From: Zoroaster sp. YZ-2022
Taxonomy: Eukaryota > Echinodermata > Asteroidea > Forcipulatida > Zoroasteridae
Assembly (NCBI GenBank): GCA_029582265.1
Contig: CM055828.1
Span: 9,027,902 to 9,091,901, forward strand
Direction of reading: 5' to 3'
Length of the DNA: 64,000 nt
In this document: piece by piece, positions 22,394 through 52,980 of the stretch
Numbering within the stretch: position 1 is the first letter of the stretch
How the letters are laid out: every line of letters begins with the position of its first letter
Program-made: the position numbers and the translations under genes
Notes under the pieces: generated by a model
What the model was told of the DNA's origin: nothing
Database searches by the model: none
What the model saw: only the letters and a program-made list of their open reading frames with translations

Positions 22394-23935
22394 ACCAACT
22401 TGGGCACGTCATGACACACAATATACAAGGTGTGGCTCAACACATCTTTTATACCAACTTGGGCACGTCATGACACACAATATACAAGGTGTGGCTCAAC
22501 ACATCTTTTATACCAACTTGGGCACGTCATGACACACAATATACAAGGTGTGGCTCAACACATCTTTTATACCAACTTGGGCACGTCATGACACACAATA
22601 TACAAGGTGTGGCTCAACACGTCTTTTATACCAACTTGGGCACGTCATGACACACAATATACAAGGTGTGGCTCAACACGTCTTTTATACCAACTTGGGC
22701 ACGTCATGACACACAATATACAAGGTGTGGCTCAACACGTCTTTTATACCAACTTGGGCACGTCATGACACACAATATACAAGGTGTGGCTCAACACGTC
22801 TTTTATACCAACTTGGGCACGTCATGACACACAATATACAAGGTGTGGCTCAACACGTCTTTTATACCAACTTGGGCACGTCATGACACACAATATACAA
22901 GGTGTGGCTCAACACGTCTTTTATACCAACTTGGGCATGTCATGACACACAATATACAAGGTGTGGCTCAACACGTCTTTTATACCAACTTGGGCATGTC
23001 ATGACACACAATATACAAGGTGTGGCTCAACACGTCTTTTATACCAACTTGGGCATGTCATGACACACAATATACAAGGTGTGGCTCAACACATCTTTTA
23101 TACCAACTTGGGCATGTCATGACACACAATATACAAGGTGTGGCTCAACACATCTTTTATACCAACTTGGGCATGTCATGACACAATATACAAGGTGTGG
23201 TTCAACACATCTTTTATACCAACTTGGGCATGTCATGACACACAATATACAAGGTGTGGCTCAACACATCTTTTATATCAACTTGGGCATGTCATGACAC
23301 ACAATATACAAGGTGTGGCTCAACACATCTTTTTATATCAACTTGGGCATGTCATGACACACAATATACAAGGTGTGGCTCAACACATCTTTTATACCAA
23401 CTTGGGCATGTCATGACACACAATATACAAGGTGTGGCTCAACACGTCTTTTATACCAACTTGGGCATGTCATGACACAATATACAAGGTGTGGTTCAAC
23501 ACATCTTTTATACCAACTTGGGCATGTCATGACACACAATATACAAGGTGTGGCTCAACACATCTTTTATACCAACTTGGGCATGTCATGACACACAATA
23601 TACAAGGTGTGGCTCAACACATCTTTTATATCAACTTGGGCATGTCATGACACACAATATACAAGGTGTGGCTCAACACATCTTTTTATATCAACTTGGG
23701 CATGTCATGACACACAATATACAAGGTGTGGCTCAACACATCTTGTATACCAACTTGGGCATGTCATGACACACAATATACAAGGTGTGGCTCAACACAT
23801 CTTTTATACCAACTTGGGCATGTCATGACACACAATATACAAGGTGTGGCTCAACACATCTTTTATACCAACTTGGGCATGTCATGATACACAATATACA
23901 AGGTGTGGCTCAACACATCTTTTATATCAACTTCT
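22394..23935. repeat. 59-bp minisatellite array (~26 copies) upstream of CEP290
   Basis: The unit is ACCAACTTGGGCACGTCATG, then ACACACAATATACAAGG, then TGTGGCTCAACACATCTTTTAT. Left units have GCACGTCATG, and units right of about 22935 have GCATGTCATG. Two units lost a CA (near 23180 and 23477), and two have an extra T (near 23330 and 23688), which suggests block duplication of several units. It lies about 290 bp 5' of the CEP290 start codon. Confidence 0.97.
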
Positions 23936-24027: not shown

Positions 24028-24800
24028 TCTTCCCATTATGTCTTGCCCATTGTGTCTGCAGGTCCATTACGTCTTGCCCATTGTGTGTGCAGGTCCATTA
24101 CGTCTTGCCCATTGTGTCTGCAGGTCCATTATGTCTTGCCCATTGTGTCTGCAGGTCCATTACGTCTTGCTCATTGTGTCTGCATACCCATTGTGTCTGC
24201 AGGTCAATTATGTCTTGCCCATTGTGTCTGCAGGTCCATTATGTCTTGCCCATTGTGTCTGCTGCATACCCATTGTGTCTGCAGGTCAATTATGTCTTGC
24301 CCATTGTGTCTGCAGGTCCATTACGTCTTGCCCTTTGTGTCAACAGGTCCATTACGTCTTGCCCATTGTGTCTGCAGGTCCATTACGTCTTGCCCATTGT
24401 GTCTGCAGGTCCATTAAGTCTTGCCCATTGTGTCTGCAGGTCCACTACATTATGTCTTGCCCATTGTGTCTGCAGGTCCACTATGTCTTGCCCATTGTGT
24501 CTGCAGGTCCATTATGTCTTGCCCATTGTGTCTGCAGGTCCATTATGTCTTGCCCATTGTGTCTGCAGGTCCACTATGTCTTGCCCATTGTGTCTGCAGG
24601 TCCATTATGTCTTGCCCATTGTGTCTGCAGGTCCATTATGTCTTGCCCATTGTGTCTGCAGGTCCATTATGTCTTGCCCATTGTGTCTGCAGGTCCGCTA
24701 TGTCTTGCCCATTGTGTCTGCAGGTCCATTATGTCTTGCCCATTGTATCCCCAGGCCAATGTCTTTATAGCCATTGTGTCTACAGGCCCATTGTGTCCAG
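24028..24800. repeat. 31-bp minisatellite array (~24 copies)
   Basis: The unit is TCCATTATGTCTTGCCCATT followed by GTGTCTGCAGG. Three unit lengths equal 31 codons and the unit lacks stops in every plus-strand frame, so all three frames stay open and give the same cysteine-rich 31-residue cycle. This is an arithmetic by-product and not evidence for a gene. Confidence 0.97.
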
Positions 24801-26308: not shown

Positions 26309-26612
26309 AAGGCCAAAGAAAAAAGTGTCCGTTTTCTGGTCTGCACGTGCGTCACCTTTTTTGTTGCTATGAAACAATATCCAATTGCAACCAAAATTGC
26401 TGGATCGAATGCAATTCTGCCGTTCTGTGTTTTAAACGACTTTTTCACAATTGAACGTTTGCCCAATTTGTGAGGACTCTCTTAAATAGCCACCATACTT
26501 TGTATATATGGGAAATTTGGTCCCTGCGTATATATATCATGTATTTCCCTGTTGGCAAAAAAAAAAGAAAAGGCGATCGATGACCAGAAACCGGACACTT
26601 TTTGGGGGGCCA
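26309..26612 (-). mobile_element. MITE family 'TTTCTGGTC', copy 2 (inverted orientation)
   Basis: Ends with AAGTGTCCGTTTTCTGGTC and GACCAGAAACCGGACACTT. The interior, read on the minus strand, matches the copies at 3681 and 47511. It has an unoccupied TTTAA at the place where copy 1 carries the piggyBac-like insertion. Confidence 0.75.
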
Positions 26613-27805: not shown

Positions 27806-28082
27806 AATTGATTGAATTTTGCCCTACACCGTGTGTACAGCACTGTATTTTCAGTGCTTTCCGAGTGTCTTTGGAAAAAAAACTCACAGGCGACTTGGGC
27901 GGGATTCGCACCCACAACCTCCTGCTTACTAGTGCAGACATCTTAAACTCTCAACCACCGAGCTTGCCCGATGTTGATTGGCTGGCTAGAATCCTATATA
28001 GCAGCGAGTGCCGCGCTATTTATAGTTTGATGAAATTCTTGTGTTGGGTGATAAACAATTGATTTAATTTTGCCCTACACTG
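27806..28082 (-). mobile_element. tRNA-headed SINE with ~25-bp flanking direct repeats
   Basis: On the minus strand, the region 27975-27885 reads like a tRNA: GGGCAAGCTCGGTGGTTGAG (box A-like), with a box B-like GGTTGTGGGTGCGAATCCCG. The segment is flanked by direct repeats CAAATTGATTGAATTTTGCC (27805) and CAATTGATTTAATTTTGCC (28056), each followed by CTACAC, consistent with a target site duplication or a duplicated host segment. Confidence 0.65.
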
Positions 28083-29100: not shown

Positions 29101-31048
29101 TTATTTTTAGGGAAAAAACGACCGTAAAAGCTGTTAATCTGAGGTCATATGTACCAAGTACAATACCGGTAGCGATATAGCGATACGGTATGTTGTATCA
29201 GTGTTGTAAATTATGATTTTTGTTACATAAACAGTGGGTTTCAAACCATTATGGGTAATTTTATTATGCCCTGACATATTCTAACATAAACAAACCACCT
29301 TTGTTTATTATACAATGCATATTTCCAATTCCTTGTAGATTTATTGATATTTATTCTACGGAACGATAAACATAAGTTTATATTTGGATGGCTGCAATGC
29401 ATTATGGGTATTTCCAACATGACCACTCAGTAAGTCATAGCCTTTATTTTGATACCGTCCTTACTCTCTTCTTTCAATTGGCAAAAGATGAAAAAAATAA
29501 TTAATAATTTCCACACTTGACCTTGATGTTTAGAATAGAGTATCAAATTACAGTATCAAATTACACTAATTACATTAATTCCGTCCACACATGTAAAATA
29601 ACTCCGGGTAGAAAAAGTTAAATTGGCCCCAGATCATAGACATAGATGTCAGAAAGATATGTCCGGAATGTGGGCATACCGTTACATTTAATGTAACTTA
29701 GTCTACTCTAGTCTCTTAGACTTAGGACGATTAAAGTTGAACTCAATTCCAGAATTCAAAAACACACAGGATAATGCTAGATATACAGTATTCCAATTTA
29801 CTATTTCTTCCTGTATCTAAAATAATTATAAGAACTTACTGTGATATATGATGACGTTTCTGATGATCGTTTTGACAATGTAAACGTTTGCTTCGCAATT
29901 TTTATTATTTTTATATAGTAAATATGGCGCGTCCCTCGCAACTGTCAAAGGTCACATAACAATAGAGGGCGTCTGTACAATTTTCGAGCTTCGAGCTTGT
30001 ACTTATTTGTCAAAACCGTGAACACATGAAATCAAATTTTGTTTAGATTAAAAACCAGATTGTCAACGAAATTTCCCCCAATGCCCCATACAAAGGGTAA
30101 GGTTATACTTTCAGGTGCCCCCCCCCCCACTGAGAATCCTAATTATAAGAATATCCATAACGTTTTCTCTCCTGTAGGCCCGACATCATCAAAATAATAC
30201 CTGTCTACACCAATGGACAGGGGGCCCTAGGTTGTATACTCACCATAACGGACACTGTCATGGCTGTTCAGTTCAACCAGTCATACCTGATTTAGGTCAA
30301 ACTTGTTTGGCAGACGGAACAAGATCGTACCTTTCAGGCGATCATTTTTCTTAAGTTAGTCCCGCCTGCTTGACATGATGGAGAATATCCCCTATTCCAG
30401 CAGGTTTCTAGATTCGCAATTTGTTGGGGCTAATATTGTTTTTCTTTAGATGTTCCATTATGAGGCAGATCCATCGCACATAAGTGGGCCTGTAATTTTT
30501 CAGACCAAAAGCCCGTTTCTATTTTAAAAAAAAGAAATAATTAAAAAAAATACTAGTCCCCAGGCCCATAGAACAAGTACCAATCACCCTGAAAAATCTG
30601 TCTTCAAAATATATACTGAATTGTCAGTGTTACATAAGCATACAGACAGGTGTAGTTGCCGAGTGCATTTTCACTCACCAGTGTAACAACTGAAATGGCA
30701 CAGACATAACCTTCTAGTCCATGATTTGTTTATATAAATGCTCCCAGCAGTTTTTTTAAAGCAGTATAATTACTATTTATGCCTACATTTAGAAAGAAAT
30801 TTACATGTTAAAATATGGCTAAAAGTACCGTAGTACGTAACACAAACATGACGTTATGTTATATGGTTGTATTGCATAACATGTTACCAGCAATTTATCT
30901 TAAAGCAGAAAACTATTCATGTGTATATTTTTAGAAATAAATATTAAATAAAATTTTCGAGAATTTTCCTTCAAAAAATAATGTTGTCACCTAAAATAAA
31001 GTAATTAAATCATTCTTTCTACAAGTATCATGACTCTGTTTTGCAGGG
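29101..31048. other. No gene seen between the promoter-like segment and the palindrome
   Basis: AT-rich sequence with a poly-C tract at about 30120. ATTATGGGTA occurs twice, near 29250 and 29400. No coding exon or RNA gene could be supported. Confidence 0.5.
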
Positions 31049-31349
31049 TAGTAGTATGTTAGATGGGGTTCCTGGCGCACCTACTTAAAAAACGATTTTT
31101 GGACAAATTCGCTGGGTAGTAGTAGGGAATTTTGACTAGGTTTTCATTAATTTTAAAAACGATTTCTAAAAAATGATTTTTATAAAACGATTTTCTCAAA
31201 AATCTCTGGGTAGTAGTAGGGCGTTTTTGTTAAAAAACCGTGATTTGTTTTGCTTTTCAAAAATGAAACTTCACTGATTTTTTGGGGGACTTTCCCTAAA
31301 TGTAAAGAGGTCTTCTGGGTCACTTGGGAACGTGTTAAAACATCAGGTG

Positions 31350-31432
31350 TGGTTGAGAACAATGACGATGATGGGAGGTTGAGAACAATGACGATGATGG
31401 GAGGTTGAGAACAATGACGATGATGGTGGTGG
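31350..31432. repeat. ~25-bp tandem repeat, three copies (left arm)
   Basis: GGTTGAGAACAATGACGATG followed by ATGGGA is repeated. The same array occurs inverted at about 43039-43122 in the right arm. Confidence 0.85.
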
Positions 31433-31582
31433 GTGAATAAAAATAGGAGGATGATGATGTTACGTGAGGTTGAGGATGATCGTGGGGGATGATGGAGGAT
31501 GGCGTTATGAAAGATTTATTTATCTAATAAAATATCTTTTTAAGAATTCGTGATCAAGATCGGTAATACAATTATGAAATGT

Positions 31583-31635
31583 AACACTTATAAAAATGAC
31601 AAACTGATTTAATATTATCTTGAGTAATTGCAAAG
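31583..31635 (+). promoter_or_regulatory. Duplicated TATA-type promoter cassette, small gene (left arm)
   Basis: AACACTTATAAAAATGACA, then TTTAATATTATCTTG, then CAAAG just before the ATG at 31636. The same module precedes the PolB gene, with the same 53-bp distance from AACAC to ATG. The TATAAAA lies about 45 bp before the ATG. Confidence 0.6.
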
Positions 31636-31992
31636 ATGACGACGAAAATAAATTTTTGGGCAAATACCGCGGCTCAATCAAAAGAGCACGTTGAGACAAA
31701 TAATATAACGATAGTACGAGCATCCGGCAGGAATGGTAAAGTGAATAAAAAAGATTATTTATTTAGCATTAGAAAACATTTAAACGCTTTACCGGTTGAA
31801 AAGATTATTCCATGCCAATGGCTTTTAGTAGGCAAAACAGACAAATGTTTAAAGGATAGCGTGTGTGGCGGAAATTTTTGTGGGGAACATAAACGTAAAC
31901 TTAAATGTGGAAAATCTATTTCTCTCGCGTGTTTGAAATGTGGTATGGGCACAAAAGCAAAAGCGCAAATATGTAGCAGATGTAAAGGCTAA
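31636..31992 (+). CDS. SAP-like / zinc-ribbon small protein (left arm)
   Basis: 118 aa, intact. The N-terminal ~50 residues (MTTKINFWANTAAQ, then VRASGRNGKVNKKDYLFSIR) resemble a short SAP-like helix-extended-helix module and are similar to the start of the PolB protein. The C-terminal half holds a Cys-rich cluster: C-x5-C-x3-C-x2-H, then C, then C-x2-C (CLKCGMG) and C-x2-C (CSRCKG). It is therefore probably a zinc-binding nucleic-acid-binding protein; the function is inferred. The right-arm copy differs at only two residues. It sits upstream of PolB on the same strand with a 74-bp gap. Confidence 0.7.
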   Translation: MTTKINFWANTAAQSKEHVETNNITIVRASGRNGKVNKKDYLFSIRKHLNALPVEKIIPCQWLLVGKTDKCLKDSVCGGNFCGEHKRKLKCGKSISLACLKCGMGTKAKAQICSRCKG

Positions 31993-32013
31993 CAAAATGA
32001 TTTAACTTTTTTT

Positions 32014-32066
32014 AACACTTATAAAAGTGACATAATAATTTAATATTATCTTGTTTAATAGTAAAG
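32014..32066 (+). promoter_or_regulatory. Duplicated TATA-type promoter cassette, PolB gene (left arm)
   Basis: AACACTTATAAAAGTGACA, TTTAATATTATCTTG and TAAAG precede the ATG at 32067. The layout and distance are identical to the cassette at 31583-31635. It occupies nearly all of the gap between the two genes. Confidence 0.6.
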
Positions 32067-35000
32067 ATGACAACGAAATATTTATCGAAATGGACATTAC
32101 CAGAATTGAAAGAGTTTGTACGCTCGCACGAGTCAATCGTGTTAGGTGAGGGTAAAATAAACAAACGTAGTTATTACGAAGCCGTGAAAAATTATATAAA
32201 AAGGCATAAACCGAAACCATTATCTAAATTAAGTTTAGTTGAATTGAGAGCACGTATAAATGTTGAAAATATAAATATTCCTAAACACGGCTCTGGGAAA
32301 AAAGGGCAATTGATTAAAAAAGACTACATTAACGCTATTAAAAGGTTTTACGGGCAAGAAGAAGAGTTGAGGTTTAAAACCCACCGATCGACGGTGGAAC
32401 TTATTTACGCGAACAAATAATGACGGTTCCGTTGAATCACAGCAAAGAAAAAGATTTAAACATATTTTGGGAGGCGGTAAAACCAAAGATTATCACCAAG
32501 TTGAATATAGACTTGAAAGATTTTAACTCATTCAAGTTTATGATTTACGTACGCATTAAATTACTCAAAGAAAAACTAGACGGTACGATCGATGAAGCTG
32601 AGCCAAATTTTCATAATAATAAGCAAATTGTTTTATTGAATTTGTACGATATCGAAAATGTATTAGATGACGTTTTTTCACAAATTCAAGAGGCTTTAGA
32701 AAAATATACGCGAGAAGGTAGCGGGTGGGTAATAGATCGTATCGTTGGAATGAACGTTAGAATTAGCAAGTATCGGCCTCTCAAAGGTGGTAGATTATGT
32801 AAGAAATAAAAAAGCGTGCATCAACGTAAAAAACAAAGACGACGATTGTTTGCGGTGGGCGATTCGCAGCGCTCTTTTTCCCGCGAAAAAGGATGGTGAT
32901 AGAACGAGTAAATACCCGATTGAAGACGGTTTAAATTTTAGTAATATCGACGCTCCCACACCCATCAATCAAATTAAGCGAGTAGAGAAACAAAACAATA
33001 TAGCGATAAACGTTTTTGGTTGTGAAGGAAAATCGATACTAGTTTACAAACTCAGCGATCAACCAACGAGGCTAGATCGCATAAATTTATTATTAATTCA
33101 CGCTGATGCGAAGAGACACATTTCAGAAGAAGAAAATGGTGTTAAATCTCACTATGTTTGGATTAAAGACGTTAATAAATTACTTTTTGACTAAACGAAC
33201 CACAAAGAACGTAAACATTTTTGCTTGAGATGTTTACAAGGTTTCTCAACAGAAGCGTTTCTCGAAAATCACGTAGAAATGTGTAAGGGAATTAACGACA
33301 GACCAACAAAATTGTTTTACCAATAAAGGGCAAAAACGACAAGTTAAAATGTATAAATTATCATAAAAAGATGAAAGTTCCTTTCGTTATATACGCTGAC
33401 TTTGAGAGCATTATTAAAAAGATTGTTGACGCTGACGCGAAGCGCGAAAACTCTACCAATACGCAAAAACTACAAGAACACGTCGTTTGCGGTTATTCGT
33501 ACGTTGTCGTAAAATGCGATGGGTTGACTAGTACCCCCTGTACGTACAGGGGAGAAGATGCGGCCAAACACTTTTTAACAGAATTAGAAAAAGAATCAAA
33601 ACAAATTAACGAAATATTTAAAAATCCTGTAAAGATTACGATGAAGGAAGAAGATGTAGAAGATTACAACTCTGCGTGTGAGTGTTGGATATGTGAAAGG
33701 CATTTCTTGAAAGTGACGCTTGCGCGGCGGAGCATGACACCAAGTTTGTAAAGACGAAAAGCGCGATAGGGTAAGAGATCATTGTCACGTTACCGGAAAA
33801 TATAGAGGCGCGGCGCACAAATGTTGTAATTTAAAACTGAGTTTAAAACCGGACAAAACTTTTATTCCAGTCGTGTTTCATAACTTGAGAGGTTACGACT
33901 CTCACCTCATTATGCAAGCCGCGGGCTGCAGTGAGAGAAATATAACGTGCATAGCAAACAATATCGAAAAGTACATTTCTTTTAATATCGGGCAATTACG
34001 ATTTATCGACAGCGCTCAATTTTTACCGGCTCCGCTTGACAAACTCGTTAAATCAAACAATTCTTTCCCGATCACAACCAAACTCGAACCCTCTCTTGAA
34101 AAATTTAATCTTATTAAAAGCAAGGGTATTTATCCTTACGAGTACATGGACTCTTTCGAGCGTTTCGAAGAAAAACAACTTCCTCTTATGGAATCTTTCT
34201 ATAGTAGTCTAAACGATAGCACCATTACTGAAGAACAATACAAACACGCAAAGAACGTTTTACAACGTGTTCGATTGTAAAAACTTGGGTGATTATCACG
34301 ATTTGTACGTGCGTACGGATACTTGCTTATTAGCGGACGTATTTGAAAACTTTCGCGTTACTTGTATACGAGAATACGGTTTAGATCCGGCCAATTATTA
34401 CACGAGTTCCGGGTTAAGTTGGGACGCTTTATTAAAACATTCAAAACAAACTTTAGATTTGTTTACAGATATTGACATGCATTTATTTATAGAGAGGGGT
34501 ATTAGAGGAGGAACGTGCATGGTGAGTAAAAGATACGTGAAAGCAAACAATAAATACTTGCCTGATTATGATAAATCAAAACCATCGAGTTACATTATGT
34601 ATTTAGACGCGAACAATTTATACGGCTACGCGATGAGTCAACCTTTACCGGCGGGTAATTTTAAGTGGATGAGTGAAAAACGAATTAACAAACTCGAGAA
34701 ACAAGGATTTAAAAACGATAAAGGATACATTTTAGAAGTCGATTTAGAATATCCAACTATTTTACACGATTCTCACAACGCGTTTCCACTCGCTCCAGAA
34801 TCATTAATAGTACCGAAAGAATGGATGAGCGACTATCAAAAAGGGTTGCTAACCGGCAAGCCGGCCCCAAACGTTGCAAAATTAGTTCCCAATTTATACG
34901 ACAAAAACAACTACGTGATTCATTATCGTAATTTACGATTGTATTTACAACTCGGTATGAAACTGACTAAAATTCATCGCGTTTTAGAATTTGATGAATC

Positions 35001-35880
35001 GTGTTGGATGAAATCGTACATCGATAAAAACACTCAACTCAGAAAAGAAGCGACGAGCGATTTTGAAAAAGATTTGTACAAACTCATGAATAATTCAGTT
35101 TTTGGGAAAACGATGGAAAATGTACGAAATCGCGTTAACGTGAATTTGAAGCGATTAAACGATGAAAAATCAGAAAATCAAATTAAAAGTCTCATCGCAA
35201 AACCAAATTTTGCAGAGGCGAGGATTTTTGATAATGAACTAGTAGCTATTCACATGCACAAGACAAAACTCGTTCTCAACCGCCCGGTTTACGTAGGAAT
35301 GAGCGTACTGGATTTATCTAAGCATTTGATGTATGATTTCTATTACAACAATTTAAAGTTAAAATACGGCGAGAGGTGTAATTTGGTTTACACGGATACG
35401 GATAGTTTGTTGCTCGATATTCAAACAGAAGACGTGTATTACGATATGGAAAAAGACAAAGATTTATACGATTTTAGTAATTATAAACAACAACATTTTC
35501 TATTTTCTGAAGAAAATAAAAAGATAATAGGCAAAATGAAAGACGAGTGTGCGGGAACTTTAATAGATGAAGTTGTTTGTTTGAGACCAAAAATGTATTC
35601 GATACTTTTATCGAACGAAAAAGAAATAAGAAAAGCTAAAGGCGTTAAAAAACAAGTTTTAGAACAACAGATTAAACACAACCGTTATAAACAAGTTTTA
35701 TCTCAAAATCTTGTTCTTCATCACGATATGAGTTTTATTAAACACGAAAAACATAGATTATATACAACGCGAGTAAATAAAATATCGCTATCTCCTTTAG
35801 ACACAAAGAAACACATTTCAGAAGATGCCGGGATACATACTCTATCTTACGGTCATTACAGCCTTGCTGAGCGTAGCTAG
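32067..35880 (+). pseudogene. Protein-primed-type family B DNA polymerase, broken (left arm)
   Basis: A DNA_pol_B_2-type polymerase of about 1,270 codons before decay. Pieces in order: two SAP-like repeats (32067-32420); a domain with DDDCLRWAIRS and HYVWIKDVNKLL (32787-33194); exonuclease I motif YADFES (33371-33751); an HNH/endonuclease VII-like DHCHVTGKYRG segment; exonuclease II NLRGYDSHLI (33873-34280); then an intact 537-codon stretch (34267-35880) with exonuclease III YHDLYVRTD, motif A YLDANNLYGYAM, motif B NNSVFGKTMEN and motif C YTDTDSL. Damage relative to the right arm: frame change near 32400, a 17-bp deletion near 32790, TGA-to-TAA region nonsense at 33192-33194, 1-bp losses near 33310, 33698 and 33750, and a 1-bp gain near 34258. 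The C-terminus ends inside the first copy of the 81-bp duplication. Confidence 0.88.
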
Positions 35881-35997
35881 TCTTAGCAACTAACGATAAA
35901 TGTAGAGAGTTGGAAACATACTCTATCTTACGGTCATTACAGCCTTGCTGAGCGTAGCTAGTCTTAGCAACTAACGATAAATGTAGAGAGTTGGAAA
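35836..35997. repeat. 81-bp tandem duplication at the PolB 3' end (left arm)
   Basis: Two exact-looking copies of an 81-bp unit beginning CATACTCTATCTTACGGTCA. The PolB stop codon lies in the first copy. It is present identically in the right arm, so it predates the inverted duplication or was homogenised. Confidence 0.92.
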
Positions 35998-36359
35998 CAG
36001 CATTAATCTTTTGTGTTTGGCTAATGAAAACGATGTTTAGCTTCACCAAAAGCGTACGAACCAACGAGTCTAACGGGATTTTTTCTTGAAGGTGATTACG
36101 TTAACTGGCGAGGCTAAAGATGTTTAATAACAAACCAAATTCCCCTACTACTACCCCGCAAAACTGGTTAAAAAATGATGTTTCTAAACACTCTGGGGAG
36201 CGCGATGAAAAGCTTGATGATGACACTAAAGATGTTGAGAAAGAGTTCTTCTCTGCGCGAGTGTATTACCGCTATTAAATAATCACGTCTAATCAGTTTT
36301 CCAAATTTACCAGATGCAACGCTAATCTTAATATTATTTCTTAATGCAGCACAACAGGG

Positions 36360-36776
36360 CTAATTTTTAATCACGTTTGGACCTCAGCATTCAGATTTAA
36401 GAGTCCTGTTTCCATAACTCACATGTCTATGGAATCTCATGTTATTAAGGCTTTCGGCTCAGCGTTTTATTTTCTACATAACATTTGTCCAAAACATTGG
36501 TTCATGCTTTTATTTCTAGTCGTTTACCGGATAGCGTGTGTATAATTCTTGTTTTGCAACTGTCATTATTAGTTGATTTACATTGGCTTCCTGTTTGGTT
36601 TTAAGATTCTTCCAACAACTGCTCGTAGTTCTAACGGCAACACTCCTTTGAGCTACCGCACTAAAGTCACTTTAAGTGCTGTGCTTTTGAGTACGCTCTA
36701 CCGAACAATATTAAAAAAGCAGATATTTTTAAATCTTTGTTAAAAACTCATTTTATTGTACATGTACTGATTGCTG
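36360..36776 (+). pseudogene. LINE RT C-terminal relic at the inner end of the left arm
   Basis: Translated pieces in mixed frames, KTLVHAFISSR, VDLHWLPVWF and KADIFKSLLKTHF, match the C-terminal end of L2/CR1-type LINE proteins in order. The same relic is inverted at 37673-38089. It is part of the palindrome but not of a PolB element, so flanking DNA was duplicated together with it. Confidence 0.65.
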
Positions 36777-37672
36777 ATCGATTACTCCCTCTTACTTATC
36801 AATTACTGATCCATTACTCTCTCTTACTTCGCAATTGCTGATCGATTACTCTCCATTACTTAAACGGTTTAACAAGCAACCTATGAATGACCTACAGATG
36901 ACCTATAGATAACCTATGAGCAACCTATAGATGACCTATAAGCAACCTATGAGTAACCTGTGAATGACCTATGAGCAACCTGTAGATGACCTATAGAGTA
37001 ACCTATAGACGACCTATAGATGACCTATAGATGACCTATGAGCAACCTGTAGATGACCTATGAGTAACCTGTAGATGGCCTATAGATGACCTATGAATGA
37101 CCTATAGATAACCTATGAGCAACCTATAGATGACCTATGAGCAACCTATGAGCAACCTATGAGTAACCTGTGAATGACCTATGAGCAACCTGTAGATGAC
37201 CTATAGAGTAACCTATAGACGACCTATAGATGACCTATAGATGACCTGTGAGTAACCTATGGGTAATTGCTAAACGGTCTATAAGCAACCTACAAGCAGC
37301 CTGTGAGCAATTACTAACAACCTGTAGGTAACTGCTAAGTAACATACTAAACTTTACTACCCCTTTTGCTATATTATTGTTGTTAATATACCGGTACTCT
37401 TTCAGTTGCACAACTGTTTTAGTTGTTGTTATCATTATTACTATATATTTAAATAATATTTTTTACTTTTTTTTATCAATTTTTATTATCAAATGGCAAT
37501 CAAATTCAATACTAAAACAAAACAAAAAAGTGTATCTTGATTCTTTAGTCATTAATCTCTTTTAAATAGCTCGTTTTGGTTTTTCTAATAAATTTCTTTC
37601 TTTGTGCTTTACTACACAAGCAATTTATAACACAACATATCCTACACAAAAAAATAGCACAGTCCCTCTTCA
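36777..37672. other. Unique spacer at the palindrome centre
   Basis: Not shared between arms. It contains the 11-bp satellite listed next, a short run of ATTACTCTC(T/C)-type words (36780-36860), and AT-rich sequence (37340-37672). No ORF of note. Confidence 0.85.
36882..37335. repeat. 11-bp satellite (~40 copies) in the spacer
   Basis: Units such as GATGACCTATA, GAGCAACCTAT and GAGTAACCTGT are repeated. A ~210-bp block is itself duplicated (36908-37020 resembles 37113-37225). Confidence 0.93.
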
Positions 37673-38089
37673 CAGCAATCAGTACATGTACAATAAAATG
37701 AGTTTTTAACAAAGATTTAAAAATATCTGCTTTTTTAATATTGTTCGGTAGAGCGTACTCAAAAGCACAGCACTTAAAGTGACTTTAGTGCGGTAGCTCA
37801 AAGGAGTGTTGCCGTTAGAACTACGAGCAGTTGTTGGAAGAATCTTAAAACCAAACAGGAAGCCAATGTAAATCAACTAATAATGACAGTTGCAAAACAA
37901 GAATTATGCACACGCTATCCGGTAAACGACTAGAAATAAAAGCATGAACCAATGTTTTGGACAAATGTTATGTAGAAAATAAAACGCTGAGCCGAAAGCC
38001 TTAATAACATGAGATTCCATAGACATGTGAGTTATGGAAACAGGACTCTTAAATCTGAATGCTGAGGTCCAAACGTGATTAAAAATTAG
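37673..38089 (-). pseudogene. LINE RT C-terminal relic at the inner end of the right arm
   Basis: Inverse copy of 36360-36776, nearly identical. The match to the left arm stops at CAGCAATCAG (37673). Confidence 0.65.
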
Positions 38090-38451
38090 CCCTGTTGTGC
38101 TGCATTAAGAAATAATATTAAGATTAGCGTTGCATCTGGTAAATTTGGAAAACTGATTAGACGTGATTATTTAATAGCGGTAATACACTCGCGCAGAGAA
38201 GAACTCTTTCTCAACATCTTTAGTGTCATCATCAAGCTTTTCATCGCGCTCCCCAGAGTGTTTAGAAACATCATTTTTTAACCAGTTTTGCGGGGTAGTA
38301 GTAGGGGAATTTGGTTTGTTATTAAACATCTTTAGCCTCGCCAGTTAACGTAATCACCTTCAAGAAAAAATCCCGTTAGACTCGTTGGTTCGTACGCTTT
38401 TGGTGAAGCTAAACATCATTTTCATTAGCCAAACACAAAAGATTAATGCTG

Positions 38452-38613
38452 TTTCCAACTCTCTACATTTATCGTTAGTTGCTAAGACTAGCTACGCTCA
38501 GCAAGGCTGTAATGACCGTAAGATAGAGTATGTTTCCAACTCTCTACATTTATCGTTAGTTGCTAAGACTAGCTACGCTCAGCAAGGCTGTAATGACCGT
38601 AAGATAGAGTATG
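38452..38613. repeat. 81-bp tandem duplication at the PolB 3' end (right arm)
   Basis: Inverse counterpart of 35836-35997. The PolB stop lies at 38569. Confidence 0.92.
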
Positions 38614-41600
38614 TATCCCGGCATCTTCTGAAATGTGTTTCTTTGTGTCTAAAGGAGATAGCGATATTTTATTTACTCGCGTTGTATATAATCTATGTTT
38701 TTCGTGTTTAATAAAACTCATATCGTGATGAAGAACAAGATTTTGAGATAAAACTTGTTTATAACGGTTGTGTTTAATCTGTTGTTCTAAAACTTGTTTT
38801 TTAACGCCTTTAGCTTTTCTTATTTCTTTTTCGTTCGATAAAAGTATCGAATACATTTTTGGTCTCAAACAAACAACTTCATCTATTAAAGTTCCCGCAC
38901 ACTCGTCTTTCATTTTGCCTATTATCTTTTTATTTTCTTCAGAAAATAGAAAATGTTGTTGTTTATAATTACTAAAATCGTATAAATCTTTGTCTTTTTC
39001 CATATCGTAATACACGTCTTCTGTTTGAATATCGAGCAACAAACTATCCGTATCCGTGTAAACCAAATTACACCTCTCGCCGTATTTTAACTTTAAATTG
39101 TTGTAATAGAAATCATACATCAAATGCTTAGATAAATCCAGTACGCTCATTCCTACGTAAACCGGGCGGTTGAGAACGAGTTTTGTCTTGTGCATGTGAA
39201 TAGCTACTAGTTCATTATCAAAAATCCTCGCCTCTGCAAAATTTGGTTTTGCGATGAGACTTTTAATTTGATTTTCTGATTTTTCATCGTTTAATCGCTT
39301 CAAATTCACGTTAACGCGATTTCGTACATTTTCCATCGTTTTCCCAAAAACTGAATTATTCATGAGTTTGTACAAATCTTTTTCAAAATCGCTCGTCGCT
39401 TCTTTTCTGAGTTGAGTGGTTTTATCGATGTACGATTTCATCCAACACGATTCATCAAATTCTAAAACTTTATGAATTTTAGTCAGCTTCATACCGAGTT
39501 GTAAATACAATTGTAAATTACGATAATGAATCACGTAGTTTTTTTTCTTCGTATAAATTGGGAACTAATTTTGCAACGTTTGGGGCCGGCTTGCCGGTTA
39601 GCAACCCTTTTTGATAGTCGCTCATCCATTCTTTCGGTATACCACTAAACACTCTGGAGCGAGTGGAAACGCGTTGTGAGAATCGTGTAAAATAGTTGGA
39701 TATTCTAAATCGACTTCTAAAATGTATCCTTTATCGTTTTTAAATCCTTGTTTCTCGAGTTTGTTAATTCGTTTTTCACTCATCCACTTAAAATTACCCG
39801 TCGGTAAAGGTTGACTCATCGCGTAGCCGTATAAATTGTTCGCGTCTAAATACATAATGTAACTCGATGGTTTTGATTTATCATAATCAGGCAAGTATTT
39901 ATTGTTTGCTTTCACGTATCTTTTACTCACCATGCACGTTCCTCCTCTAATACCCCTCTCTATAAATAAATGCATGTCAATATCTGTAAACAAATCTAAA
40001 GTTTGTTTTGAATGTTTTAATAAAGCGTCCCAACTTAACCCGGGACTCGTGTAATAATTGGCCGGATCTAAACCGTATTCTCGTATACAAGTAACGCGAA
40101 AGTTTTCAAATACGTCCGCTAATAAGCAAGTATCCGTACGCACGTACAAATCGTGATAATCACCCAAGTTTTTACAATCGAACACGTTGTAAACGTTCTT
40201 TGCGTGTTTGTATTGTTCTTCAGTAATGGTGCTATCGTTTAGACTACTATAGAAAGATTCCATAAGAGGAAGTTGTTTTTCTTCGAAACGCTCGAAAGAG
40301 TCCATGTACTCGTAAGGATAAATACCCTTGCTTTTAATAAGATTAAATTTTTCAAGAGAGGGTTCGAGTTTGGTTGTGATCGGGAAAGAATTGTTTGATT
40401 TAACGAGTTTGTCAAGCGGAGCCGGTAAAAATTGAGCGCTGTCGATAAATCGTAATTGCCCGATATTAAAAGAAATGTACTTTTCGATATTGTTTGCTAT
40501 GCACGTTATATTTCTCTCACTGCAGCCCGCGGCTTGCATAATGAGGTGAGAGTCGTAACCTCTCAAGTTATGAAACACGACTGGAATAAAAGTTTTGTCC
40601 GGTTTTAAACTCAGTTTTAAATTACAACATTTGTGCGCCGCGCCTCTATATTTTCCGGTAACGTGACAATGATCTCTTACCCTATCGCGCTTTTCGTCTT
40701 TTACAAACTTGGTGTCATGCTCCGCCGCGCAAGCGTCACTTTCAAGAAATGCCTTTTCACATATCCAACACTCACACGCAGAGTTGTAATCTTCTACATC
40801 TTCTTCCTTCATCGTAATCTTTACAGGATTTTTAAATATTTCGTTAATTTGTTTTGATTCTTTTTCTAATTCTGTTAAAAAGTGTTTGGCCGCATCTTCT
40901 CCCCTGTACGTACAGGGGGTACTAGTCAACCCATCGCATTTTACGACAACGTACGAATAACCGCAAACGACGTGTTCTTGTAGTTTTTGCGTATTGGTAG
41001 AGTTTTCGCGCTTCGCGTCAGCGTCAACAATCTTTTTAATAATGCTCTCAAAGTCAGCGTATATAACGAAAGGAACTTTCATCTTTTTATGATAATTTAT
41101 ACATTTTAACTTGTCGTTTTTGCCCTTTATTGGTAAAACAATTTTTGTTGGTCTGTCGTTAATTCCCTTACACATTTCTACGTGATTTTCGAGAAACGCT
41201 TCTGTTGAGAAACCTTGTAAACATCTCAAGCAAAAATGTTTACGTTCTTTGTGGTTCGTTTGGTCAAAAAGTAATTTATTAACGTCTTTAATCCAAACAT
41301 AGTGAGATTTAACACCATTTTCTTCTTCTGAAATGTGTCTCTTCGCATCAGCGTGAATTAATAATAAATTTATGCGATCTAGCCTCGTTGGTTGATCGCT
41401 GAGTTTGTAAACTAGTATCGATTTTCCTTCACAACCAAAAACGTTTATCGCTATATTGTTTTGTTTCTCTACTCGCTTAATTTGATTGATGGGTGTGGGA
41501 GCGTCGATATTACTAAAATTTAAACCGTCTTCAATCGGGTATTTACTCGTTCTATCACCATCCTTTTTCGCGGGAAAAAGAGCGCTGCGAATCGCCCACC

Positions 41601-42402
41601 GCAAACAATCGTCGTCTTTGTTTTTTACGTTGATGCACGCTTTTTTATTTCTTACATAATCGCACAGCTCTATATAACTACCACCTTTGAAAGGCCGATA
41701 CTTGCTAATTCTAACGTTCATTCCAACGATACGATCTATTACCCACCCGCTACCTTCTCGCGTATATTTTTCTAAAGCCTCTTGAATTTGTGAAAAAACG
41801 TCATCTAATACATTTTCGATATCGTACAAATTCAATAAAACAATTTGCTTATTATTATGAAAATTTGGCTCAGCTTCATCGATCGTACCGTCTAGTTTTT
41901 CTTTGAGTAATTTAATGCGTACGTAAATCATAAACTTGAATGAGTTAAAATCTTTCAAGTCTATATTCAACTTGGTGATAATCTTTGGTTTTACCGCCTC
42001 CCAAAATATGTTTAAATCTTTTTCTTTGCTGTGATTTATCGGAACTATCATTATTCGTTCGCGTAAATATGTTCCACCATCGATCGGTGGATTAAACCTC
42101 AACTCTTCTTCTTGCCCGTAAAACCTTTTAATAGCGTTAATGTAGTCTTTTTTAATCAATTGCCCTTTTTTCCCAGAGCCGTGTTTAGGAATATTTATAT
42201 TTTCAACATTTATACGTGCTCTCAATTCAACTAAACTTAATTTAGATAATGGTTTCGGTTTATGCCTTTTTATATAATTTTTCACGGCTTCGTAATAACT
42301 ACGTTTGTTTATTTTACCCTCACCTAACACGATTGACTCGTGCGAGCGTACAAACTCTTTCAATTCTGGTAATGTCCATTTCGATAATTAATTCGTTGTC
42401 AT
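38569..42402 (-). pseudogene. Protein-primed-type family B DNA polymerase, broken (right arm)
   Basis: Same gene as 32067-35880, damaged differently. From the natural start at 42402 a stop appears at codon 5; the frame is then open for 913 codons from the internal ATG at 42363 down to 39622. Landmarks in that frame: second SAP-like repeat about 41-81, Cys253/Trp256 and His354 of the unknown N-terminal domain, a C2H2-like finger about 378-398, exonuclease I about 435-440, an endonuclease VII-like Cys/His cluster about 530-581, exonuclease II about 599-608, exonuclease III about 737-752, motif A about 838-848. A small insertion near 39640 shifts the frame. The remaining C-terminal 321 codons (39534-38569) with motifs B and C are open in another frame. 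Neither arm has an intact gene. Confidence 0.88.
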
Positions 42403-42455
42403 CTTTACTATTAAACAAGATAATATTAAATTATTATGTCACTTTTATAAGTGTT
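42403..42455 (-). promoter_or_regulatory. Duplicated TATA-type promoter cassette, PolB gene (right arm)
   Basis: Mirror of the left-arm cassette: AACACTTATAAAAGTGACA on the minus strand, ending 53 bp before the natural PolB start. Confidence 0.6.
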
Positions 42456-42476
42456 AAAAAAAGTTAAATCATTTTG

Positions 42477-42833
42477 TTAGCCTTTACATCTGCTACATAT
42501 TTGCGCTTTTGCTTTTGTGCCCATACCACATTTCAAACACGCGAGAGAAATAGATTTTCCACATTTAAGTTTACGTTTATGTTCCCCACAAAAATTTCCG
42601 CCACACACGCTATCCTTTAAACATTTGTCTGTTTTGCCTACTAAAAGCCATTGGCATGGAATAATCTTTTCAACCGATAAAGCGTTTAAATGTTTTCTAA
42701 TGCTAAATAAATAATCTTTTTTATTCACTTTACCATTCCTGCCGGATGCTCGTACTATCGTTATATTATTTGTCTCAACGTGCTCTTTTAATTGAGCCGC
42801 GGTATTTGCCCAAAAATTTATCTTCGTCGTCAT
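42477..42833 (-). CDS. SAP-like / zinc-ribbon small protein (right arm)
   Basis: 118 aa, intact. It is identical to the left-arm protein except Leu for Ser at residue 18 and Ser for Pro at about residue 54. All Cys and His positions of the C-terminal cluster are kept. That it stays open in both arms while the polymerase is broken suggests either very recent duplication or selection on the small gene. Confidence 0.7.
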   Translation of the reverse strand: MTTKINFWANTAAQLKEHVETNNITIVRASGRNGKVNKKDYLFSIRKHLNALSVEKIIPCQWLLVGKTDKCLKDSVCGGNFCGEHKRKLKCGKSISLACLKCGMGTKAKAQICSRCKG

Positions 42834-42886
42834 CTTTGCAATTACTCAAGATAATATTAAATCAGTTTGTCATTTTTATAAGTGTT
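42834..42886 (-). promoter_or_regulatory. Duplicated TATA-type promoter cassette, small gene (right arm)
   Basis: Mirror of 31583-31635, with the same TTATAAAA to ATG spacing. Confidence 0.6.
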
Positions 42887-43038
42887 ACATTTCATAATTG
42901 TATTACCGATCTTGATCTCGAATTCTTAAAAAGATATTTTATTAGATGAATAAATCTTTCATAACGCCATCCTCCATCATCCCCCACGATCATCCTCAAC
43001 CTCACGTAACATCATCATCCTCCTATTTTTATTCACCC

Positions 43039-43122
43039 ACCACCATCATCGTCATTGTTCTCAACCTCCCATCATCGTCATTGTTCTCAACCTCCCATCA
43101 TCGTCATTGTTCTCAACCACAC
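43039..43122. repeat. ~25-bp tandem repeat (right arm)
   Basis: Inverse counterpart of 31350-31432, built from CATCATCGTCATTGTTCTCA. Confidence 0.85.
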
Positions 43123-43420
43123 CTGATGTTTTAACACGTTCCCAAGTGACCCAGAAGACCTATTTACATTTAGGGAAAGTCCCAAAAAAAATCAGTGAAG
43201 TTTCATTTTTGAAAAGCAAAACAAATCACGGTTTTTTAACAAAAACGCCCTACTACTACCCAGAGATTTTTGAGAAAATCGTTTTATAAAAATCATTTTT
43301 TAGAAATCGTTTTTAAAATTAATGAAAACCTAGTCAAAATTCCCTACTACTACCCAGCGAATTTGTCCAAAAATCGTTTTTTAAGTAGGTGCGCCAGGAA
43401 CCCCATCTAACATACTACTA

Positions 43421-46400
43421 GGGTTGAGAATTGATGAATTGAATAAGTATGGCGGAATTTAAAAACAAACATGATAAAGATACGAAGTGGATGATTGTAT
43501 TGGTCACCATTAGAGGAACATAATGATAGCCCCATTCCTAAGTAAAAGTCTGTATAATTATTAACCTTATTATATAAAACGATGGAACAGGGAGAATAAT
43601 CTGCAGGCCGCCAGTGAGTTAAATTTGTGTTCACCCCACCATCTGAGCAATTTAAACAAAATATAATATTCAAACCTTTTTGATTTGAAAAACTAGCTAA
43701 ATTCGGGATTTATTTCTTCAAGTATTATTCAATTGTTTCCTCTTTGAATTAATTAATTATCCCTAATTAATTGACTGCATGCTCCTAGCTCAGCGCCGCG
43801 ATGGCACACAAACTGTTGTCTTTGTAAAAAAAAAAAACATTGTGAAGAAGGGTTGTCCGTTCGAATGAAACGAACCTCCTGGCATACCGGCTTGTTACAA
43901 GAATGACCGTCAATGTTTTGCCAACCGTCGGTAGGCAAAAACTACATCTGTCACTTAGCAAACGAAAGCTCGATATACCCTTATATTATGCATGCCCAAA
44001 TAGTTTTGGACATTTTCTATAGAGAGTGGCACAAACTCCTGATCTTTAAGGCTTATTTTAATATTTTTTTAAAGTTTAATTAATAACCACATAAAACACA
44101 AACATCTTAATCCTCATTTAAGCCAGTGCATGGGCCTACACTTTTAGTAAAATGACTTTTAATGCATCCATAACAATCAAAATGGGCCTATGTTTCAGCT
44201 GATCGTTAACTTAGCAAATAGTGAAAATGCATTCAGATTGTTCATTCATTCTAACGTGGAATTTCTGTCTTCGGATAAAATACCATCATCAACTTTGATG
44301 TGAAACAGTGATCATTTCTGTTTGTTGAGATTACCAATAATGCCTATAGTAGTCTAACATCATTGGGGGTTGATGGTTGAGTGTGCATGAAGACCTATAT
44401 GCCATTTGGAGAAGAAGAAAAAATAGTCGCTCGTCTCAACAGTGTGCGTTTCTAAAACTTAATAAAAGCTTGTCTTTATTAGCAACATCCAGAGAGCCCC
44501 ACCCACACTTTCCGAGCGGTATTGTCCCTCCACGAATATCAGCTGTACTTTTTCTGCGGATTGATCACTGAAATGCTATTTTCAAGTTCTTGTTCGGGTC
44601 TATAGGCCACCGCATTATTATTATTTTCTGTGGGGCTCCTTTAAAAAATTTTTTTTTTTTTTTAAAGATTCATAAAATGTACAGGGCAGGTGTTTTTTCC
44701 TGACAGATAATCCTTTAAACACATCATGCGCCTGTGTGTCGGTGAGATGACAAGCGCTGATGAGTAACAACTGGTCTTAACTCTTAAATATTTATGTTTC
44801 TAGCTTGGCTTTAATTTATAATATCATGAGAATAAATCATCAATATGTAAGATGTAAGGCCGTGCATCCAAACAAACAATTCCTCGATGGTGGGGGGGGG
44901 GGGGGGGGGTGAAGACAAGCGTTCAAATTTTGAATATCTGCAACATTGCCCGGAGTGCATTTGTTTTAAGAGGAACTTTTATTCAATGTTCCCCGTAAGA
45001 ATTAAAAGATAAAAGAGAAGTTAGCAACCCAAATGTCAAACCCTTCAACATTTTTGTTAAGAAGGGTACAGATTATATAGGCCTATATATGTTTGCACCT
45101 GTTTAGGAAATTACATTTTGCGCTCTTATACATATGTTTCTTTTTCTCCGAAGTGAAACTATTTTAAAAGTTGCTCTAAAAGCCTGGCATTATTTATGTA
45201 GGATCTAAGTCTATGTTTCTTTGAGGTGGTTCAGAATAAATGAAAGCTACAATCGTGATTTTTGTCTAACATGTAGGCCCCTACATGAATTTTTAAGAAT
45301 TATATCCCCAGAATATGCGAGCAATCATTGAACGGAAGTTTTTTCATGCGGATTTTTGTAAAAGGAGACTAGTTCTTGATCCAAAGTGTACATAATTAAT
45401 ATGAACATCGTATTCGAGCTTTGAACGCCTTGGGGTTAAAAAAACACACACATCCACAGTGACACTGAAAAAACATTCAGATATTTATTTCTATGTAATA
45501 TGTTGGCTATACAATATTTCTCTATCCTCATTGCGAGTATGAAAGCACGTATATGCCTATAGGTACATTTTGTTTCTAGCATAGGCAGATTTTAAAGTTA
45601 GTCTAAATGGTAAATTGTATTCTTTCCGTGAGAAACAAAAAATAATAATAATAAAACAATAAAAATAAAAATAAAAAAAATAATTAAAAAAAACCCGGAC
45701 CTTTAAATATTATTGAGCACATCTCACTTGTTTAATGTTTTTACTTTGCATACAGATTTCTTTCAAGGTATTTGCAATTGTTATGGGCGGGGCTTTGAAA
45801 ACACTGAAGTGAATTTATCCCCCCAAATTGATCAGGGTTCAAAATTCATCGTGAATGTTGGGTGGGTTGTGAAATAAGGTGTATGAGCTCACAGTGCGAA
45901 ACCACTATGGCTTGGGGTTCGGGTTGGAGCACAGGGCCCAGAAGCTTTAGGATGTGTGCTTATATACATGTAGACGTTCTGAAATGCAATCTGGGGCATA
46001 TTATTTAAACATAATTATCACGGTGAATTATTAAGTGTTCTTATCAACTTAAAGATGGACTACAACGGAATAATGATAAGTGCTGTGTTGCTGTTTTCGT
46101 TCGAGAAATGTGTAATGATTACTAACATATTATTATTATTCAATAAAACTTGTTCCTTCATGCAAAACAAAAATCAATTTGATCGGCGTTCTACGACCCA
46201 GAAAAGCCCAGTTTCACCAAAAGCCCTCAACTCATGAATAATTCATACTTCGTATGTGACGTACACCCATGAAGCTTTGCTACCCCCACGCACAACAGTC
46301 GATCGCGTGTACTGTATGCATTTACCATACATGCAATGCGGAACAACAGCGGACAAGCGACATCTTCTAGACCGAAAAAAGCTTCATAAAAACTTCATGC

Positions 46401-46940: not shown

Positions 46941-47340
46941 CCTTTTATAATAATAATAATAATACGGTAATACACGATTATAAAGTGCACATATCCTAGC
47001 GACTAGATCAAGGCGCTGTACAAAGTAAAGTCTTAAGCTGTTTTTTGAAGGTTGACATTGAAGTGGATTGGTGGATTTGCGTGGGGAGGTTGTTCCATAG
47101 TCTGGACCAGTCAGTGTAACTGAAGGCCCCATGTCCGGCTGATTTTGAACTTGTTGGTGTGATGAGTGTTGTGCTGTCAGTGAGTCTGCGCAGTCTGCTG
47201 TCACGCTGGTAAACTGTTACAAGTTCCTGGAGGGTAAGTCAGGGCCATAGAATTCAGGCATTTCCAAATGAGTGTTGATGCGCAGACTCACTGGGAGCCA
47301 GTGCAGCCTATGACGTCACTGTTTAGATATGATCGAGATC
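46941..47340 (-). mobile_element. SINE/LINE 3'-end fragment with (ATT)n tail
   Basis: On the minus strand the sequence passes through a GTTCCATAGTCTGGACCAG-type block (read on plus) and ends GCGCCTTGATCTAGTCG, then TATGTGCACTTTATAA, then (ATT)n. The same tail layout appears in the SINE at 49079. No ORF. Confidence 0.55.
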
Positions 47341-47510: not shown

Positions 47511-47807
47511 GGCCCCCCAAAAGTCTCCAGTTTCTGGTCATCGGTCGGCTTCAAAATCGGTGCGGTAACGCGCTTTTTTTTGGCCATCTTTTTTTTGGCC
47601 AACAGGAAATACGAGAATCATTGTATACACCAAATTTCCCATATATAAAGTATGGTGGCTAAGAGAGGCCTCACAAATCGGGCAAACGTTCATATCCCTA
47701 TATGTGAAAAGTCGTTAACACAGCACGGAAGAATTCCAATCGATCCAGCAATTTTGGCTGCAATTGGACATCGCGGAGACCAGAAACCGGAAACATTTTT
47801 TGGGCCT
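47511..47807 (+). mobile_element. MITE family 'TTTCTGGTC', copy 3
   Basis: The left end GGCCCCCCAAAAGTCTCCAG continues TTTCTGGTC, and the right end GACCAGAAACCGGAAACATT continues TTTTGGGCC. Internally GTGAAAAGTCGTTAACACAG is the intact TTAA site that is occupied in copy 1. Confidence 0.78.
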
Positions 47808-51678: not shown

Positions 51679-52360
51679 ACCAGGTATATATTTATATCAC
51701 GATTTCTTATGTGTTCTTATATATAATTGACGTCAATACAACACTAATTTGGTCACAGAAGCGGATTCATAGCACTCTAGTGCAAAGCAAAGCATGATGT
51801 CTGACTTGGCAATGTTTCCACCTGATGTTGACTCCCACAAAAAAGGGCATGGAACTTTCCTCAACATTGTTACAAACTAAGTGTCCAGTATACGTAAAGG
51901 CTAAATGCAATAATGGGTTCAATTAAATTGTGAGGTCTTAAAACCGTACAAATAAGAAACATTCGTGAAACATTAATGGTACAGACAAAGACTGTGTTAT
52001 GCCTACATTAGCGTAAAGCCCAGGGGATATGTGTGTGTGTGTGTGTGTGGGGGGGGGGGGGTTGAGCAAACTATTCGGTTACACATATTTCAGGCCAAGA
52101 ACCTGAGGTGTTACGTTTGCAAAATTAGCATTGGTCTTATCATCATTATATAAAAGTATCCGAACAAAACATTTGTCAGAAGTTCCAACATTTTACCAAA
52201 ATTGACCCAGAATTTTCCAAAATAAAATGTTGTTTCAAATGTTCTCTCTCTCAAAAAACAACAACAACAATAATACTTTAATTATATTCAAACTGTAGTT
52301 GAGTGGATATAGGTGTTTATTGCTGGGGTGGTCTCCAAAAGAAAACCATAGAGACTGATA
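51679..52360. other. No gene seen; (GT)n-poly-G tract
   Basis: Contains GTGTGTGT followed by a run of G at about 52030-52061. Otherwise featureless. Confidence 0.5.
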
Positions 52361-52980
52361 CAATGTACATGTAGTCCTAACCTTACTGAGACTGATACAA
52401 TGTACATGTAGTCCTAACCTTACTGAGACTGATACAATGTACATGTAGTCCTAACCTTACTGAGACTGATACAATGTACATGTAGTCCTAACTCACTGAG
52501 ACTGATACAATGTACATGTAGTCCTAACCTTACTGAGACTGATACAATGTACATGTAGTCCTAACCTTACTGAGACTGATACAATGTACATGTAGTCCTA
52601 ACCTTACTGAGACTGATACAATGTACATGTAGTCCTAACCTTACTGAGACTGATACAATGTACATGTAGTCCTAACCTTACTGAGACTGATACAATGTAC
52701 ATGTAGTCCTAACCTTACTGAGACTGATACAATGTACATGTAGTCCTAACCTTACTGAGACTGATACAATGTACATGTAGTCCTAACCTTACTGAGACTG
52801 ATACAATGTACATGTAGTCCTAACCTTACTGAGACTGATACAATGTACATATAGTCCTAACCTTACTGAGACTGATACAATGTACATATAGTCCTAACCT
52901 TACTGAGACTAATACAATGTACATGTAGTCCTAACCTTACTGAGACTGATACAATGTACATATAGTCCTAATCTTACTGA
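52361..52980. repeat. 37-bp minisatellite array (~17 copies)
   Basis: The unit is GAGACTGATACAATGTACAT, then GTAGTCCTAACCTTACT. Copies are nearly identical; one unit lacks CT and several late units have ACATATAG instead of ACATGTAG. Confidence 0.97.

Follow-up and report, generated by a model that had tools for sequence, protein, structure and literature searches.

The 64-kb window, by which we mean the whole stretch of DNA analyzed here, contains a long palindrome in which two copies of a PolB gene read toward each other. A first-pass annotation had placed it at 31049-43420, with two arms of about 5.7 kb around a spacer of 896 bp, and our alignments confirmed the palindrome there, far beyond chance, with arms at 31049-36776 and 37673-43420. 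The arms are 98.9% identical in a BLAST alignment of 5,751 columns. When aligned from AGTAGT inward they span 5,750 columns with 37 substitutions (22 transitions and 15 transversions) and 8 indels, one of them of 17 bp. The palindromic unit (31050-43419) measures 12,370 bp, there is no N anywhere in the window, and no second long-inverted-repeat element was found elsewhere in it. Each arm has at its outer end the terminus AGTAGTATG, followed inward by two subterminal GGGTAGTAGTAGGG repeats, ORF1 and a full-length PolB; then come a tandem duplication of 81 bp, a degenerate copy of the subterminal repeat in inverse orientation, and the decayed 3' end of a LINE-like sequence (Table 1). The PolB modules had been called "head-out", which is true in the sense that their N-termini face outward; both genes read toward the center.

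The leaders of ORF1 and PolB (31582-31647 and 32013-32078, mirrored in the right arm) are 86% identical over 66 bases, and the first residues of ORF1 and PolB look alike, as though a promoter and N-terminus had once been duplicated. No homologue of ORF1 was found in the protein collection. Polyadenylation-type signals past PolB comprise a sole AATAAA per strand, in the spacer (37587 on the plus strand, 37487 on the minus strand), and ATTAAA at 36274 and 36710, mirrored in the other arm. The innermost piece of the arm shows motifs typical of LINE C-termini, and we take it to be LINE-like for this reason; the flank has a reading frame (47008-47238, minus strand) that is presumably a LINE-like C-terminal region of the same general type. 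The window also contains large minisatellite arrays with periods of 27 to 59 bases (1-2066, 4637-6245, 14820-18446, 22394-23933, 24033-24797, and 52351-52980), a tRNA-like sequence without a readable anticodon (27889-27964, minus strand) that we assume is perhaps a tRNA-derived SINE, and an inverted pair of 80% identity, 26377-26565 and 47589-47771, with one member on either side of the palindrome, which is probably a dispersed repeat.

Table 1. Coordinates of the palindrome and its features within the window
Feature	Position	Strand	Remarks
Left flanking direct repeat AGGGT	31045..31049		putative 5-bp target-site duplication, from sequence
Left arm, first bases AGTAGT	31050..36776	+	5,727 bp
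Two subterminal GGGTAGTAGTAGGG repeats (31114, 31208)	31114..31218	+	mirrored at 43355-43251
TATAAAA-bearing leader ahead of ORF1	31582..31635	+	near-copy ahead of PolB, from 32013
ORF1, left arm	31636..31992	+	118 codons, cysteine-rich, open; homologous to the ORF before PolB in contig L004
PolB, left arm	32067..35880	+	broken by one stop and several small indels
81-bp tandem duplication across PolB stop	35831..35999	+	also in right arm, 38450-38618
Inverted degenerate subterminal-repeat copy, 40 bp	36123..36162	-	mirrored at 38293; score reached by 1/300 shuffles
Decayed LINE-like 3' end within arm	36560..36776	+	in both arms
Spacer	36777..37672		896 bp, single-copy within the window; left part is minisatellite with 11-bp and 33-bp periods
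Right arm, last bases ACTACT	37673..43419	-	5,747 bp
PolB, right arm (ORFs P0001 and P0002)	38569..42402	-	about 1,277 codons in one frame; early stop, short out-of-frame patch
ORF1, right arm	42477..42833	-	open; two residues differ from left
Right flanking direct repeat AGGGT	43420..43424		from sequence

PolB and its relatives

The earlier assignment of this PolB to the Polinton/adintovirus kind was borne out by its relatives and predicted fold, which place it in the Polinton/Maverick-adintovirus-bidnavirus kind. Pfam reported no family above cutoff for the PolB ORFs, so the assignment rests on relatives and fold. Phi29 polymerase ranks first in the VIA-align list for PolB, and the protein belongs to the protein-primed PolB family, as expected of a Maverick/Polinton. 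A Foldseek comparison with the PDB gave no match at E<=0.001, no sequence relative was found in the PDB (one search gave 11 matches, best E 0.17, mostly zinc fingers), and a scan of viral contigs with P0001 alone returned no match. Protein relatives were taken from the best 120 of 1,855 matches, with 19 and 59 of them used in alignments. The candidate catalytic residues Cys253 and His354 are both kept in 20 of 20 aligned sequences; in the larger alignment, candidate His354 is present in 60 of 60 and candidate Cys253 in at least 90%. These candidates fit the vOTU as described in PMC11071308, where N-terminal terminal-protein and vOTU domains are reported.

PolB of this kind is encoded by two viral contigs (L001 and L002) and by six contigs in prokaryote bins (L003-L008); the latter, filed under bacterial/archaeal MAGs although their PolB is of an animal type, are probably misbinned eukaryotic or viral DNA. 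Relatives and repeats together suggest that the window is of animal origin. Pfam, covering 10 of the 12 listed ORFs in each viral contig, found an A32-like ATPase and an rve integrase above cutoff in L001, and a phospholipase-like domain with no recognized integrase in L002. The rve match lies above cutoff in L004 and L008 and below it in L005 and L006. Integrase and PolB are convergent in L001 and L004 and on the same strand in L005, L006, and L008. The layout of L004 is an ORF1 homologue (30% over 57 columns), PolB, and then a convergent integrase, an order which suggests that each arm of the palindrome corresponds to the PolB-bearing end of an element of this type, truncated ahead of the integrase.

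We searched the 64 kb by tblastn with 22 ORFs from L001 and L002 (11 of the 12 listed in each) and 18 ORFs from L003-L008. Only PolB and ORF1 gave matches at E<0.1, in a search that distant homologues may escape, in agreement with the earlier reading of a minimal element without other recognizable element genes. Neither the integrase nor the ATPase of a Maverick was found in the window with these ORFs; no ORF of the relatives is named as a capsid, and their unnamed ORFs had no tblastn match in the window. Among the eight related contigs, all partial, there is no long palindrome, the longest inverted repeat being 208 columns at 66%.

Termini and divergence of the arms

A 20-mer starting with TAGTAGTATG occurs within the 64 kb only at the two outer ends, with up to three mismatches allowed, and the common end sequence that had been described is indeed present on both. 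Its first T is part of the flanking AGGGT, and the element proper begins with AGTAGT. AGTAGT stands at 31050, ACTACT runs up to 43419, and AGGGT lies directly outside both. AGTAGT starts at 4 of the 5,727 positions of the arm, and chance would make five flanking bases equal in 0.165% of random pairs, a figure that rises to 0.85% when four positions of slack are allowed; these end statistics were picked after the sequence was seen and are supportive, not proof. Since the AGTAGT and ACTACT ends lie between AGGGT repeats, the 12,370 bp look as if inserted as a single unit, and the view that the boundary was set by the element and not by a random break is upheld by these ends with AGGGT exactly outside them. 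The simplest reading of the sequence is that the palindrome would be one true terminus carried twice and inserted once as one unit. According to PMC8097293, the commonest end motif of vertebrate Mavericks is (AGT)2//(ACT)2 and their duplications are of 6 bp. The palindrome has this end motif; its flanking repeat is of 5 bp, the sixth base being different.

The sequence GTTTTGCRGGGT adjoins AGTAGT at the left end (31038-31049) and the inner motif of each arm (36153-36164 and 38285-38296), and has no other site in the window at 11 or more of 12 bases. The flank outside the left end and the sequence outside the inner inverted motif are equal at 11 of 12 bases, and 31038-31056 matches the reverse of 36146-36164 at 18 of 19. 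If the 11/12 match reflects a target preference (RGGGT), it would fit an insertion as well. Two candidate structures were rejected: an extension of the element into the left flank, which was not significant as a whole (88/300 and 292/300 shuffles reached its score), and a single 5.1-kb unit with its own target-site duplication, of which none was present at 20 end combinations.

The arms had been said to differ by scattered substitutions and small indels. Our counts bear out the substitutions and indels but not a uniform scatter, since 20 of the 37 substitutions fall within two patches (255 aligned bp in total) and the remaining 17 are spread over 5,469 bp, a clustering matched by 0 of 5,000 random placements. 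Twenty-six substitutions could be placed in PolB codons, 13 of them at third positions; five PolB codons differ at two or three bases, and three of the five have similar residues. By their sequence, the two patches look like conversion from a relative about 8% diverged, and local consensus error may be an alternative source. Each stop and frameshift in PolB is confined to one arm and ORF1 is open in both, which suggests that the mirror probably arose while both genes were still intact. Both the LINE-like piece and the 81-bp duplication occur in the two arms and thus predate the mirror. With both PolB frames broken today, the locus is probably not autonomous now.

Origin of the palindrome

The first-pass annotation had left a choice between a new foldback-type PolB element and a fold-back replication or inverted-duplication product of a minimal one. 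We favor the second option in its fold-back replication form, and add that the product looks to have been integrated as one unit: on balance, we lean toward the palindrome being an integrated snap-back, double-left-end derivative of an element of the Maverick/Polinton kind. The sequence itself shows the palindrome, its end motif, the direct repeats, the gene content, and the arm-specific lesions; the copying path, integration in trans, and any function are what we infer from them. The parent would have had AGTAGT termini and a protein-primed PolB. Synthesis would have started from the end that bears PolB, gone through ORF1 and the polymerase gene, and run on into a LINE remnant and minisatellite DNA, perhaps host DNA of the donor locus. 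The strand would then have folded back, with the present 896-bp spacer as the turn, and been copied along itself as far as its starting point, giving a product with the same functional terminus at both ends that could be copied again. An integrase supplied in trans by a helper would have inserted it here with a 5-bp duplication, after which the arms would have decayed separately, the two patches looking as if copied from a diverged relative.

This origin is consistent with the AGTAGT/ACTACT ends, the flanking AGGGT, the Maverick-kind PolB, the gene order of L004, and the arm-specific lesions. AAV snapback genomes, asymmetric molecules in which one end is present twice together with a loop, are reported to form, to replicate, and to be able to carry the loop (PMC8235507). 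Three features speak against a snap-back origin. The decayed LINE-like piece of the arm is odd for a replicating element unless flanking DNA was taken up; the 11/12 match between flank and inner motif gives the impression of a 5.1-kb unit bounded by inverted ends of 19 bp that are missing from the right arm; and the direct repeat is of 5 bp, as against 6 bp in intact vertebrate Mavericks.

The LINE-like DNA included in the arms would be accounted for by an inverted duplication in place, in which a PolB-only copy (about 31038-36164, with short inverted ends) lay beside a LINE remnant, and a break in the chromosome led, through foldback priming, to an added inverted copy of 31049-36776. The 18/19 match also points this way, its outer 12 bases recurring nowhere else in the 64 kb (at 11 or more of 12), and foldback inversions at breaks are known from reports in yeast (PMC7467729, PMC10622511). 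However, such a duplication leaves unexplained why the right arm ends exactly at AGTAGT with AGGGT on both sides, none of the 20 end combinations tried gives the 5.1-kb unit a target-site duplication of even 2 bases, and the left flank alone matches the arm no better than shuffles do; we regard it as rather unlikely. Insertion-like ends and direct repeats would suit a foldback-type mobile family in which the palindrome, its 5.7-kb arms serving as terminal inverted repeats, is the standard form and present in many copies, and the two patches, where 20 substitutions fall within 255 bp, hint that the same genome contains diverged relatives. We consider such a family improbable, given eight related contigs without a long palindrome, although these are partial. 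More doubtful still is an assembly artefact in which a read was fused to its own complement, or one copy to another: the left arm lacks a single A at three places within A runs, as from sequencing error, but 37 substitutions and 8 indels, the 17-bp one included, separate the arms, the spacer is single-copy in the window, and the two flanks differ yet carry matching 5-bp repeats.

The PolB genes of the palindrome face each other, and we speculate that a transcript reading through the spacer could form an extended RNA hairpin directed against PolB of the family. In Drosophila simulans, selfish genes are reported to be suppressed by hairpin-RNA loci (PMC10317233). A broader idea, which we raise tentatively and consider unlikely at present, is that animal virus-like transposons shed snap-back satellites. 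These would be double-left-end, integrase-less palindromes with two protein-priming ends and host DNA from the donor site, inserted by a helper integrase (perhaps at RGGGT sites) and inherited, as hairpin-RNA loci that maybe restrain the parent family. If real, such satellites would be a heritable counterpart of defective interfering genomes. A search of the open-licence PMC literature found no palindromic Maverick among the matches listed. If the snap-back origin that we favor is right, the palindrome preserves in a chromosome the trace of a copying error, a fold-back by a Maverick-kind polymerase, and would support linear, protein-primed replication of Maverick-kind elements in animals. It would also offer a route by which virus-like elements could give rise to inverted repeats of great length and to natural loci of hairpin RNA.

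Comparison with known systems

Foldback transposons resemble the palindrome in having very long inverted repeats that flank a short middle; they differ from it in that each palindrome arm contains a polymerase gene. Yeast linear plasmids such as pGKL1 have palindromic derivatives of a linear, protein-primed replicon, but these belong to a cytoplasmic plasmid, whereas the palindrome is integrated. Mavericks/Polintons, including adintoviruses, share with it the PolB kind, an inward-reading PolB module at the end, and, as described in PMC8097293, AGTAGT/ACTACT ends. Unlike them, the palindrome has no integrase or ATPase found in the window, and its direct repeat is of 5 bp, not 6 bp. Its inverted repeats of 5.7 kb compare with 46-1,447 bp in intact vertebrate Mavericks, and its 12,370 bp with 12.7-24.6 kb, so both repeat size and length lie outside the ranges given there (PMC8097293). 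Bidnaviruses have a PolB related by predicted fold, which they are said to have acquired from polintons (PMC11071308); unlike the palindrome, they are ssDNA viruses. Finally, although AAV is a parvovirus with no protein-primed polymerase, and the product here is chromosomal and of a formation that we infer, the palindrome is like the snapback (defective interfering) genomes of AAV in having one terminus mirrored at both ends around a loop (PMC8235507).
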